Shown piece after piece: positions 738-28,738 of a stretch of DNA of 28,881 bases. Every line of letters begins with the position of its first letter. Position 1 is the first letter of the stretch. Under the pieces are notes generated by a model. The model worked only from the letters and a program-made list of their open reading frames with translations. It was not told the DNA's origin and searched no databases. The stretch comes from a virus, in the IMG/VR virus record IMGVR_UViG_3300036791_000056, positions 1 to 28,881 of that record. One strand, given 5' to 3'. The position numbers and the translations under genes were made by a program.

Positions 738-2488
738 GACTTGTATCACCCGTCCGGGGGCGCGCGGCCGAATGGCCCGCGCCCGGCACGCAGGCCGCGT
801 ATCTCGCGCGGTTCTCGAACGACTCGAACGACGTCGACGTCGAACAATCGTCCGTCACGCGTCAGGGCGATTTCGCGCGCGGGCTCGCCGAGCGTCAGCA
901 ATGGCCGATGGTCGACGCGTTCGTCGACGATGGGATCTCCGGGGCGGAGTTTGCGAACCGCCCCGATTTCATGCGCCTGATGGCGCTATGTGACGACGCT
1001 ATCGCGGGGCGGCGCGCGATGCCGTTCGGCGTCCTCATCGTGTCTGAGCTCTCGCGACTCGGGCGCGAAATGTTCGAGGTGCCGTACGCGATCAAGCGTC
1101 TCGCCGAAGCGGGCGTGCGACTCTTCACGTACCGCGAGGGCGGACGCGAGGTGCGCTTCGACTCGCCCGAAGCCAAGATGATGCTCATGTGGACGACGTT
1201 CAACGATGAAATGGAGCGACACAAGGCGCGGCAGCGCGCGACGGATGCGTACGTCCGCATTAACACGCAGGGGCACGCGTCGGGCAAGGCGCCGTTCGGC
1301 TATCGACGCGAACGCGTCGTCGGGTCGACGGGCTTGCGCTCGCACGCGCAGTTCGTCGTCGACACGGACGCGGCCGACATCGTGCGCCGGATCTATCAGC
1401 GCGCGCTCGACGGCGCGGGCACATGGCGGATCGCGCGCGAGCTCGACGCCGACGGCATCGCGTCCGCGAGCGGCGTGCGCTGGTCCGGCACGGCGATCCG
1501 CTCACTCGTGAAAAACCCGATTTATCGGGGCGTGCGCGAGTGGAACCGCAAGCGCGTGCGCGATCAGTTCGGCAAGCGCATCGTCGGCGCGGGCACTATC
1601 GAGCGCGCGAGCGTGCCGCGTGAAGAGTGGCAGCACACCGACGCCGCGCATCTCCGCATCGTCGACGACGTGACTTGGTACGCCGTCGCGAAACGGTTCG
1701 AGCGGTCAGCGGTCGCGGCGCGCGCGGGGGGCATGGTGCGCCGTGACTGTGACGCGCTCTACGTGTTCACGGGGCACCTGCGCTGCGCGGTGTGCGGGGG
1801 CTGGTTGGAAATTCGCCACCAGCGTCGTCGTGACGGCGTCGAGAAGGTCTACGGCTGTCGCACGTACAACCGGCACGGGCTGCGCGGCTGCTCGAACGGG
1901 CGACGCGTGCGACGGGAGATCGTCGAGCGCGACCTCTTCGACGCGCTGCGCGCGGCAATGACGCGGCCGACGCTCGCGCAGGATCTCTTCGACACGGTGC
2001 GCGCCGAGCTCACGCCGCCGTCTGCCGCCCAGATCGCGCGGCGGGGCAAGGAGCTGGCGCGCCTTGAACGTGAAGCGCGAACGCTGGCGCTGAGTCTCGC
2101 GAAAGGGCGGCGCGTCGAGGCCGTCTCGGCCCTCCTGCAACAGACGCAAGCGCAGATCGACGACGTGCGCGCGCGGATCGCCGCCGACACGTCACGCGCG
2201 CGCGAATTCTCTGACGCCGAGATCACGCGTCAGATCGCGCACAGCGTCGAGACGTGCGTCGAGAAACTCCGTCCCGACCGACTGACCGACGCGCGGGAGG
2301 TGCTCGCAGCCATGCTCCGCGAACCGATTCGCATGACGCCCACGACCGGGCACGTGAAGGGGTACGAATTCGAGGGGCGTATCAATACGCGAGCGTTTCT
2401 CGGCCAAACCGGCGTTACACACAGCGGTAGTTACCCACGGGCATTTACCGCTAAGTGTAACGTGGCATTCAAGGGGCGAGCGGCGTAG
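734..2488 (+). CDS. large serine recombinase (phage integrase)
   Basis: Site-specific recombinase of the large serine integrase family, which joins phage attP to host attB through a covalent 5'-phosphoserine intermediate. The start at 734 is chosen because it forms an ATGA overlap with the preceding gene and gives 584 residues, in the family's usual 450-600 range. The catalytic Ser is Ser28 in the ARFSND motif. The resolvase catalytic domain spans about 20-165 (DDGISG and ELSRLGR segments visible). The recombinase domain spans about 170-290 (GKAPFGY; helix-turn-helix-like WRIARELDADGI). The zinc ribbon spans about 335-390 (CAVC and later Cys residues). A coiled-coil (about 430-480) lies inside the C-terminal DNA-binding region. 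The last 25 codons overlap a 50-bp dyad resembling attP. Longer upstream starts would add residues encoded by the two preceding genes. Confidence 0.95.
   Translation: MRLVSPVRGRAAEWPAPGTQAAYLARFSNDSNDVDVEQSSVTRQGDFARGLAERQQWPMVDAFVDDGISGAEFANRPDFMRLMALCDDAIAGRRAMPFGVLIVSELSRLGREMFEVPYAIKRLAEAGVRLFTYREGGREVRFDSPEAKMMLMWTTFNDEMERHKARQRATDAYVRINTQGHASGKAPFGYRRERVVGSTGLRSHAQFVVDTDAADIVRRIYQRALDGAGTWRIARELDADGIASASGVRWSGTAIRSLVKNPIYRGVREWNRKRVRDQFGKRIVGAGTIERASVPREEWQHTDAAHLRIVDDVTWYAVAKRFERSAVAARAGGMVRRDCDALYVFTGHLRCAVCGGWLEIRHQRRRDGVEKVYGCRTYNRHGLRGCSNGRRVRREIVERDLFDALRAAMTRPTLAQDLFDTVRAELTPPSAAQIARRGKELARLEREARTLALSLAKGRRVEAVSALLQQTQAQIDDVRARIAADTSRAREFSDAEITRQIAHSVETCVEKLRPDRLTDAREVLAAMLREPIRMTPTTGHVKGYEFEGRINTRAFLGQTGVTHSGSYPRAFTAKCNVAFKGRAA
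2413..2462. other. attP: candidate attP site (50-bp quasi-palindrome)
   Basis: Two 17-bp arms (2413-2429 and 2446-2462) are inverted repeats matching at 15 of 17 positions, beginning CGTTACAC and ending GTGTAACG. Inside them is a second symmetric pair, CCC at 2434-2436 and GGG at 2439-2441, around a central AC dinucleotide (2437-2438). Length, imperfect dyad and asymmetric central dinucleotide are what serine integrases use for attP, and the site lies in the last codons of the integrase gene itself. Both arms being intact argues for an unintegrated attP rather than attL or attR, where one half would come from the host. Alternatives are an operator or an RNA hairpin. No host attB can be compared here. 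Confidence 0.6.
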
Positions 2489-26631: not shown

Positions 26632-27116
26632 TGCACGTCCTCGAATTCCGCGAACGCGTCGACGCCGCCGCCCGTCGTCGAGTACGGCAACGTCTGCACG
26701 CGCACGCGACTCGACGGCGTGAGCCCGAGCTCGGCCCAGAGTTTCAGGCAATTCCCGAGGGCCTTGTTCGCGATGCCGATGTAGGGGTTCGGCATCGGAT
26801 AGCCGCTCGGGGAGCGCACAACCATCCCGCCCGCTGCGATCTTGCTCGTCGCGCCGAGATAGCGCGCCCACTGCTGACAGAGCGCGACGAGTGCCGCCCA
26901 ATCCGCATCGGTGAGCACGCGCGCGCCGCGCAAGATCGGCGCGAGTCGGTGCCACTCCGCGACCGCGACGGCATCGCCGACGAGCTCGCGCGGGGGCGTC
27001 TCGAACACCGACGCCGTCGCCGCGATCTCGGGCTCGTGCGCGTTGAGCGGCCGCTGGCCGGGGTTGCCCTCGAGCTTTTTACGCGCCGTCGGTTTCGGTT
27101 TCGGGCCGCGCTGCAT
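26628..27116 (-). CDS. terS: terminase small subunit (P27 family)
   Basis: The 162-residue protein opens MQRGPKPKPTARKKLEGNPGQR, the conserved N-terminus of P27-type small terminases, with PLNAHEPEI following. The centre has WHRLAPILRGARVLTDADWAALVALCQQWARYL, a helical region, and ANKALGNCLKLWAELGLTPSSRVRV near the C-terminus, which is also conserved. It binds packaging initiation sequences and loads the large subunit. It overlaps the glycosyltransferase gene by 38 bases and the large subunit by four. No obvious ribosome-binding site precedes it (AAAAAACCCC only). Confidence 0.93.
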   Translation of the reverse strand: MQRGPKPKPTARKKLEGNPGQRPLNAHEPEIAATASVFETPPRELVGDAVAVAEWHRLAPILRGARVLTDADWAALVALCQQWARYLGATSKIAAGGMVVRSPSGYPMPNPYIGIANKALGNCLKLWAELGLTPSSRVRVQTLPYSTTGGGVDAFAEFEDVH

Positions 27117-27981
27117 GGGGTTTTTTGATCAACGTCATGCCGTAATCGTCGACGCCCGCGCGCAGCGCGACGTCGGGCCGCAGGACGAGTTTGTTGTTCG
27201 CGAACCGGCGATAGTCGACGGAGTGATGCGGCCGTCCGAACTTCCACACGAGCCGCGAGCAGTCGGGGTGCAGCCGCACCTGCATCTCGGATTTCGGAAT
27301 CGTGCCCTCGTGCTCGTAAAAATCTGCCGTGCAGCCGCCCTTGACGGTCTGCGTCGAGACTTTGCCTTGGAGAAACGCGTTGAATTCAATCGTGCAATAG
27401 CCCGCCTTGAGCATCCGCAGCGACAAGTCGGTGTCCTCGTTGTATCGCCCGCGCCACCGAAACGGCATGTCGTTCCGAATGAGATTGCACGAGTAGATCC
27501 GCGTATTCATGATCACGGGTCGCAGCGCGACGGCCGCTTTCGTCATGAAATCGTACGCCGGTCCCGCCATCGCGACGGTGAGATACCGCAGACAGAAATC
27601 CTCCATGCACCGGAACAGCGTGCCGTCCGTTACGAGCAGTTTTCGATTGCGATGCAGCCGATAGAATTCTTGGATGTTGTCGTCCATCACCCAATGCCAC
27701 GCGGCGCCGCGCGCGAGCGCATCCGCCCACGCCGCGTTGCGCGCCGCGCCCGGCCCCTGACTCTTCGCCGCACCGACGTGGTCGCACGTGTCGTACTCGG
27801 CGTGGAAGCGCGGATCGAGCGCGAGCACCTTCGCTGGATCGATCACGGCCGCGTACGCGTCGACCTCGTATGGCTCGACGATGATGCGGAACGGGACGCC
27901 GAGCGCGTCGAGCGCCCGCGCGGTCATGCGCGTATCGGCGCGCCCTTTCGAGACGATGTAGACGGGGAATTGCGGGTTCAT
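27079..27981 (-). CDS. TET-associated-type glycosyltransferase (phage DNA hypermodification)
   Basis: The 300-residue enzyme starts at the ATG overlapping the zinc-ribbon stop as ATGA; the frame to 28173 runs through two upstream genes and is rejected. It has a GT-A fold order: strand PVYIVSKGRADT at 6-17, helix, FRIIVEPYE at 31-39, then GPGAARNAAW at 77-86, and HWVMDDNI (DDN at 100-102) as the metal-binding DxD-like motif, with the catalytic-loop acids in YNEDTDLSLRM (180-190). This pattern matches the TET/JBP-associated glycosyltransferases found in phages that glycosylate 5-hydroxymethylcytosine in DNA. It lies with a ParB-like gene and terminases. The dioxygenase that would make its substrate is not in the window. 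A teichoic or sugar-nucleotide transferase is possible but less likely. Confidence 0.82.
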   Translation of the reverse strand: MNPQFPVYIVSKGRADTRMTARALDALGVPFRIIVEPYEVDAYAAVIDPAKVLALDPRFHAEYDTCDHVGAAKSQGPGAARNAAWADALARGAAWHWVMDDNIQEFYRLHRNRKLLVTDGTLFRCMEDFCLRYLTVAMAGPAYDFMTKAAVALRPVIMNTRIYSCNLIRNDMPFRWRGRYNEDTDLSLRMLKAGYCTIEFNAFLQGKVSTQTVKGGCTADFYEHEGTIPKSEMQVRLHPDCSRLVWKFGRPHHSVDYRRFANNKLVLRPDVALRAGVDDYGMTLIKKPHAARPETETDGA

Positions 27982-28100
27982 CGGTCGGCGTCGTGCGCGA
28001 GAGCTTTCGACGTGCTGCACTTCGCGCAGAAGTACCAGAACCAGCGATTCCACGTGTGGCAGTACTTGCACCGCCATTCTGTGCGAAGCGTCGTCGTCAT
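27978..28100 (-). CDS. 40-residue zinc-ribbon protein
   Basis: A short reading frame fits exactly between the ParB-like gene and the glycosyltransferase, overlapping each by four bases (ATGA at both ends). The product has two CxxC knuckles, Cys11/Cys14 (CKYC) and Cys25/Cys28 (CAKC), around an aromatic core (WNRWFWYF), the pattern of a minimal zinc ribbon. Such a small protein might bind DNA or a partner enzyme. The twin overlaps strongly support its reality. The downstream tail is basic then acidic (SKALAHDADR). No function can be assigned, but a role in the DNA-modification cassette is the natural inference. Confidence 0.78.
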   Translation of the reverse strand: MTTTLRTEWRCKYCHTWNRWFWYFCAKCSTSKALAHDADR

Positions 28101-28738
28101 CGGGGCGCCTCATCGGCGGTGCCCGCGAACACGACGTCGGTCGGCTCGCGCGCGGGTTTCGGGAACCAGACATAGCGCGTCTTATCGGTGAGCGTTTGCT
28201 CTAGCAACGCCGCGAACGCGTCGACGTCGGCTTGCGTGCGGAAGTGAACTTTGATCGTGCGGTACGCCTCCTGATCCTCCTGCGTGAACTCGGGCATCCC
28301 CGCCCAATCCGGCTTCACGCCCTCCCCGAGCAGCATCGCCTCTTCCGCTTCGGTCCAGAACGGGCGGAGATCGAGGCCCGCCTCGCGATCTTCGCCGAGC
28401 GCGACCACGTCCCACGTCGCGAGCTCGGCCGCGCGATTGTCTGCAAGGGAGAGTTGCCGCTTCTGTTCGTCAGTCAACCCGCGACGCCGCACGGCGATCA
28501 GTTCGTCGCCGCTCGCTTCGATGATGCGAACGCGCTCAATCCCGACCTGACTCGCGCTCTCGACGACGCCGTTCCCCGCGAGCACGACGTCGGACTCGTC
28601 GAGCACAATCGACCGCGCCGCCCCGACCGCGCGGAGCGACTCGACGATGACGTCGAGATTGCGGGGCGTGCGCTGACGCCGGTTGTTGGGGTCGGGCACG
28701 AGCGCGGCCAGCGGTTTCGTGATGTCTTTCGGTGCCAT
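28097..28738 (-). CDS. ParB-fold (ParB/Srx-like) protein
   Basis: The 213-residue product has GAGG before its ATG. Residues 1-75 match the ParB nuclease/CTPase fold: LAALVPDPNNRRQRTPRNLDVI, ESLRAVGAARSIVLDESDVVLAGNGVVESASQVGIERVRII. The arginine of the partition-type GERR motif is replaced (GNGVVES), as in many phage ParB-domain proteins. A LTDEQKRQLSLADNRAAELATWD segment follows, then a C-terminal domain with TIKVHFRTQADVDAFAALLEQ and TRYVWFPKP. No KorB-like parS-binding helix-turn-helix is seen. Proteins of this kind lie next to terminases and DNA-modification genes in several phages; substrate unknown. Confidence 0.88.
   Translation of the reverse strand: MAPKDITKPLAALVPDPNNRRQRTPRNLDVIVESLRAVGAARSIVLDESDVVLAGNGVVESASQVGIERVRIIEASGDELIAVRRRGLTDEQKRQLSLADNRAAELATWDVVALGEDREAGLDLRPFWTEAEEAMLLGEGVKPDWAGMPEFTQEDQEAYRTIKVHFRTQADVDAFAALLEQTLTDKTRYVWFPKPAREPTDVVFAGTADEAPR

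Follow-up and report, generated by a model that had tools for sequence, protein, structure and literature searches.

A probable attP site within a phage serine integrase gene: predicted exchange of the integrase C-terminus and putative loss of an ssrA-like tail

In the virus studied here, the attachment site of a large serine integrase (LSR) most likely lies inside the integrase gene itself. The window, by which we mean the whole 28,881-bp stretch of an IMG/VR virus record, contains a 50-bp quasi-palindrome at 2413-2462 within the integrase reading frame. We hold with good confidence that this dyad is the attP of the enzyme whose gene contains it, and that integration swaps the C-terminus of this enzyme, probably removing a degron. 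The dyad and its position in the gene are observed directly, whereas its function as attP in the window phage is inferred.

The integrase gene occupies positions 734-2488 of the forward strand and encodes 584 amino acids, identified as an LSR by Pfam, PHROG and structure matches. Resolvase (PF00239), Recombinase (PF07508) and Zn_ribbon_recom (PF13408) domains follow one another in this order, all above their Pfam cutoffs; the product matches the integrase family PHROG 95 (E 3e-74), and its AlphaFold model matches the structures of the SPbeta, phiC31 and Bxb1 integrases. Residues R26, S28, S40, Q44, R108 and R111, representing the catalytic serine and its arginine neighbours, are invariant across the integrase alignments. 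The stop codon is found at 2486-2488, 16 residues beyond Pro568. Upstream, a basic ORF of 99 amino acids (438-737) overlaps the integrase start by 4 nt (TGA at 735-737, ATG at 734-736), which suggests translational coupling; it has no match in Pfam or PHROG and could be a directionality factor. The window also encodes a TET-associated glycosyltransferase (Pfam TAGT, 27079-28738); Pfam finds no match for the 213-aa ORF beside it, and the pair hints that the phage DNA may be modified.

The quasi-palindrome consists of a left arm (2413-2436), a central AC dinucleotide (2437-2438) and a right arm (2439-2462), all on the forward strand. The arms match at 19 of 24 positions, and the details described in the initial annotation were all confirmed, namely 15 of 17 matches in the outer part, an inner CCC/GGG pair, and a centre formed by the last base of the Pro568 codon (CCA, 2435-2437) and the first base of the Arg569 codon (CGG, 2438-2440). 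This centre lies in frame, 51 nt before the integrase stop. The element is the top 24+2+24 dyad of the window, where the runner-up reaches 17; dinucleotide shuffling of the entire window yields 0.02 dyads of at least 19 matches per window, and none of 2000 local shuffles reached 19/24. Synonymous recoding of residues 552-582 with the gene's own codon usage did not reach 19 in any of 3000 attempts, the maximum being 15/24, and GC3 is 0.50 in the element versus 0.84 in the rest of the gene. The constraint therefore acts on the DNA and not only on the protein, and the symmetry is not a by-product of the protein sequence. A chance or peptide-driven palindrome was considered and is excluded by the shuffles and synonymous recodings.

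With its imperfect dyad of about 50 bp, an asymmetric 2-bp centre and a location beside the integrase, the element has the form expected of an LSR attP, and it is very probably the attP of the integrase at 734-2488. We find it barely credible that it should be anything else: a GC-rich hairpin does lie nearby (2522-2554) and there are no experimental data on the attP of the window, but neither a terminator-like site nor a matching Rfam family was found at 2413-2462, arms of about 24 bp with a gap of 2 fit an LSR site, and relatives have their junctions at the corresponding position. The hairpin itself, strong with 12 of 13 pairs and without a T run, is situated between the convergent integrase and tail-end genes and is perhaps a two-way terminator. 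By analogy with relatives, whose integrated copies keep the left arm and diverge directly after the centre, and with their attR sites, the left arm would stay with the integrase on integration, the AC is the presumed crossover, and the right arm would go to the far prophage end. Neither an integrated copy of the window phage nor an attB for it was found, and its attB is a matter of inference. The left arm next to the AC does not spell a normal or obvious tRNA acceptor (3′) end; CCCACGGGCATTT somewhat resembles the tRNA-Glu antisense CCCCAACGGGATTT, a likeness that was not counted as evidence.

No close relatives were detected by a single-protein scan of viral_contigs or by blastn against phages, and a half-site DNA pattern gave seven exact matches in viral_contigs, about the chance expectation. 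The C-terminal sequence of distant LSRs encoded by alphaproteobacterial plasmids is ...VAGxGFEPxxFRL; of the initial seven loci (L002-L008), three show an antisense tRNA-Met(CAT) gene overlapping the integrase 3′ end. The survey comprised about 100 LSR genes from viral_contigs scans with alignments of relatives, and in 56 of these the C-terminus is antisense tRNA (..GFEPTTFRL, ..LEPPTRGL, ..GIEPPTCGL). A dyad of at least 15/24, located 30-130 nt before the stop, is present in 31 of 43 genes without a tRNA-encoded end, compared with 6 of the 56 tRNA-integrated genes (Fisher p = 3e-10) and 33 of 532 control windows, i.e. equal windows elsewhere in the same genes (p = 7e-24). These p values overstate independence because the rows are related by descent, and some of the 31 dyads are chance occurrences, of which the control rate predicts about three; the best dyad of L088 in this zone, for example, is not at the homologous place. 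The scarcity of dyads in integrated genes is consistent with the earlier suggestion that the symmetry of the window's site marks it as unintegrated. Counting against the attP reading, L088 and L089, whose integrases are nearest to that of the window at 37-41% identity, show only 14/24 at the equivalent position. In one surveyed integrase, L199, a 19/24 dyad is still intact 129 nt upstream of an end encoded by a tRNA, which looks like the product of a second recombination between a free form and an occupied site.

In integrated relatives, the left arm and central dinucleotide are followed by antisense tRNA or tmRNA sequence. The free Rhizobium phage RR1-A reads TGGTAGCGGG-AG-AGCGTTTTGAG (its site is also given as ...TGGTAGCGGG-AG-AGCGTTTTGAGCAATCCCCCCAGA). 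Its dyad centre precedes the stop by 51 nt, precisely the distance found in the window. The prophage L101, whose integrase is 88% identical to that of RR1-A, reads TGGTAGCGGG-AG-AGGGACTTGAACC, with antisense tRNA after the same left arm and centre. The Microcystis phage Mae-JY30 also has a 19/24 dyad 51 nt before the stop. L108 and L109 are one integrase caught in both states, their integrase DNA being nearly identical up to ...GGTAGCGGAGG, the dyad centre of L109, and divergent directly after it. The initial annotation had proposed a search of relatives for hybrid sites, and these bear out its expectation: left arm and central dinucleotide are kept, host sequence comes after, and the integrase C-termini differ by state. 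Its attP reading is likewise supported by the position of these junctions and by the constraint at the DNA level; replacement of the last 16 or so residues is observed in relatives, and for the window phage it can only be inferred. RR1-A has its own tRNA-Met gene (L159:32572-32648), and its integrated relatives lie in host tRNA-Met(CAT) genes (compare tRNA-dependent lysogeny).

The opposite ends of IMG/VR prophage records are mostly trimmed at genes, and attR was obtained from only two. Rejoining gave attP dyads of 14/24 (L115 with L143) and 10/24 (L124 with L145), and the free C-termini rebuilt from these attR sites are ...VRVAV and ...LQIAA. For an Azospirillum island, no attR was found within 50 kb.

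Judging from the sequences, the clade of the window is itself integrated by C-terminal exchange at tRNA and tmRNA genes in Nitrospirota. A profile of the window, L088 and L089 integrases (A4) matches 15 of 295 Nitrospirota genomes (E < 1e-60, best 4e-136) and, at the same threshold, none of 398 genomes of another phylum, that of the Laribacter MAG. In the tree, these three integrases group with 16 Nitrospirota integrases with full support, the window branch being long; outside this group, free and integrated states interleave. Among 19 Nitrospirota loci scanned, 17 have tRNA-Glu, tRNA-Ala or tmRNA at the integrase 3′ end, and L272 ends in cut tRNA-Glu sequence. A frameshift-broken relative in a Nitrospira MAG (L092/L285) reads at its end into tRNA-Arg(TCG) and represents a decayed integrated copy. 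The phage record L088 encodes a terminase that shares 71-72% identity with that of the window, and terminase relatives with 36-42% identity occur in 4 of the 295 Nitrospirota genomes. The clade and the integrase matches make a member of the Nitrospirota a plausible host for the window phage; this is a lead and not a result.

Complete attachment sites could also be rebuilt in this phylum. For a tRNA-Glu element in the complete genome G350, attR was found 24 kb away, and the rejoined attP scores 17/24 versus 5 for attL, 10 for attR and 8 for attB; here attL and attR are a true partner pair. The core is duplicated upstream in six element regions of five Nitrospirota genomes, giving eight attR sites, some of which belong to neighbouring tandem elements, so that not every rebuilt pair consists of true partners. 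In element regions of G350 and G170 (L294-L296, L303-L305), two or more displaced integrase tails lie upstream of a single tRNA/tmRNA site, which suggests that islands accrete in tandem at a shared attachment site. The tmRNA-targeting integrase of L281 is 94% identical to that of L277 over the last 1.2 kb and, in contrast to L277 and L279, departs after the core TGGTGGAGGCGA into non-tmRNA sequence, without a dyad.

Beyond the presumed crossover, codons 569-584 of the window gene (2438-2485, forward strand; RAFTAKCNVAFKGRAA) encode a tail that would belong to the unintegrated form only, and similar tails are found in L088, L089 and at Nitrospirota attR sites. The window integrase ends in ...NVAFKGRAA, resembling the Nitrospirota tails that were rebuilt by joining the flanks by script: ...SIDVLALAA, ...TIELLVEAA, ...TIDLLVVAA, ...HIHGIALAA, ...TIQGKVLAA, ...KIAGVAFAA, ...KIEGVAVAA and ...KISGVAFAA. 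Read in the integrase frame, every one of the eight terminates in -AA, against 0 of 16 in the other frames, and the tmRNA tags at Nitrospirota tmRNA genes found here end in ANQELALAA. Of 34 free forms, taken from viral records or named phages, 18 have a terminal -AA and 26 a terminal Ala; L105, L208, L212, L246, L248, L254, L258 and L267 lack the Ala, a point against the proposed degron. The -AA ending occurs in none of the 56 integrated genes and in 16 of 666 control ORFs, a third ORF set (40/508) having been left out as it was contaminated by the integrases themselves. A conserved free-form tail, LG-x-W/Y-R-x-A-A, extends beyond attP in L120, L121, L128, L163-L166, L170 and L178, in which the centres are AA, TG or AC and not tRNA-like.

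The displaced tail ends like an ssrA degradation tag, its terminal Ala-Ala (2480-2485, forward strand) being a candidate ssrA-like degron. Since the -AA ending is enriched in free forms and rebuilt tails and absent from integrated genes, integration probably strips a degron from the integrase. This rests on sequence comparison, without proteolysis data; we give somewhat better than even chances to the inference that the ending is a ClpXP-type degron that leads to proteolysis.

In the mechanism that we propose, an integrase dimer would bind both arms, cut at the central AC and recombine attP with an attB on the chromosome. The in-frame position of attP, 51 nt before the stop, means that integration would cut the integrase gene in two. 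The gene body would be joined to host sequence, which would provide another C-terminus and another stop codon; the tail encoded by the phage would pass to the other prophage end, where it would not be translated as part of the integrase. In the unintegrated phage, an integrase ending in ...NVAFKGRAA would be exposed to ClpXP-type proteolysis; the prophage would make a stable hybrid integrase, and the tag would return upon excision. Stabilisation of the prophage integrase by loss of the degron is inferred by analogy, as is any effect on the lysogeny decision. The initial annotation had suggested a form of integration-linked switching through altered integrase level or activity, for which removal of an ssrA-like degron would be a concrete, if inferred, candidate.

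Alternatively, the tail could contribute to the function of the enzyme, with its final strand completing the C-terminal domain and favouring attP x attB recombination, such that its loss alters activity or directionality and not stability. AlphaFold predicts a strand at residues 576-583 with fair confidence (pLDDT about 76-83), so the tail may have a structural role, and the similarity among tails is not confined to the terminal AA, as seen from ...SFKIxGVAFAA for Nitrospirota and ...LGRWRxAA for the L120/L163-L178 clade. We regard this as possible but rather unlikely, given that the terminal small pair is the most regular feature of the tails and is not required by the strand, that Ala precedes the final residue in all 13 tails considered, those of the window clade and the two rebuilt prophage tails, and that the tails of other clades vary in length and sequence. 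Degron and structural part may also both be true of the same tail.

LSR genes commonly adjoin their own attachment sites, and the overlap might serve only compactness, keeping integrase and site linked, with neither the tail nor its loss being of consequence. Integrated copies do tolerate many different host-encoded tails, and L237 (L237:4617) probably has its attP outside the gene, given that its highest-scoring dyad, 19/24, is located 85 nt past the integrase stop; its protein nonetheless ends in ...RILA. This explanation seems improbable to us, however, as the tails at attR remain in frame with a conserved ending (8/8 vs 0/16) although they are not translated there as integrase, and as the overlap of attP and gene recurs across deeply split clades of the tree.

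A degron removed by integration remains our preferred reading. We lean, by a small margin of belief, towards the wider proposition that a widespread class of serine integrases sets its own lifetime via its substrate, the free form being tagged and short-lived, integration untagging it and excision retagging it. If this is true, the enzyme's own sequence records that its job is done, in phages and islands of Alphaproteobacteria, Nitrospirota and others. An integrase gene copied from a prophage carries a C-terminus encoded by the host, a point of importance to annotation and to the design of tools from mined integrases.

In the open literature, we found no description of a phage serine integrase gene that both contains attP and encodes a degron; subscription journals were mostly not covered, and the combination may have been described elsewhere. 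LSR sites, tRNA targeting and integration-removed degrons are known parts; what appears to be new is their combination and the ssrA-like displaced tail. The phiC31, Bxb1, SPbeta YokA and A118 integrases share with that of the window the domain order, a dyad attP of about 50 bp and an asymmetric 2-bp centre; to our knowledge, their attP sites lie outside the integrase reading frame. In KplE1, the attachment site and the intS integrase gene are likewise said to overlap, tying regulation to integration, but intS reportedly encodes a tyrosine integrase and overlaps at its promoter region rather than its C-terminus. Serine integrases are found here to target tRNA and tmRNA genes recurrently; in 2014, targeting of tRNA genes by serine recombinases was described with Islander as not known (PMC4383910).

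A close functional parallel is the integration-dependent immunity of the mycobacteriophages BPs, Brujita and their relatives (Broussard 2013; PMC4557955, PMC9262239, PMC8092301). In BPs, the viral repressor is degraded via an ssrA-like tag that integration removes, and an A135E change near its end stabilises the protein (PMC4557955, PMC9262239); in Mycobacterium abscessus prophages, -AA ends recur on repressors and integrases (PMC8092301). As in the window, attP in phages of the BPs type lies in the 3′ end of a gene and the viral protein bears an -AA tag, lost in their case at integration into a tRNA gene, and their integrases also carry ssrA-like tags. In these phages it is the repressor gene that is split, and they recombine by means of a tyrosine integrase encoded by an unsplit gene; in the window, the gene to be split is that of the LSR itself. 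With attP inside the integrase gene and not inside a repressor gene, the window phage does not fall into the BPs type. Integration-dependent switching would thereby reach beyond the repressor of phages with tyrosine integrases, to the very gene of the integrase in phages and islands with serine integrases, which offers a reason for puzzling integrase genes that run into tRNA genes. In the ssrA genomic islands of Dehalococcoides, the 3′ end of the serine recombinase gene dsiB always overlaps attL at the tmRNA gene, and its authors asked in 2011 whether full function is limited to the circular element, leaving the overlap unexplained (PMC3146451). That enzyme differs in being a CcrB-like recombinase of islands for which no dyad, free-form tail or degron was described (PMC3146451); the exchange of C-termini proposed here would give its overlap with attL a possible function.
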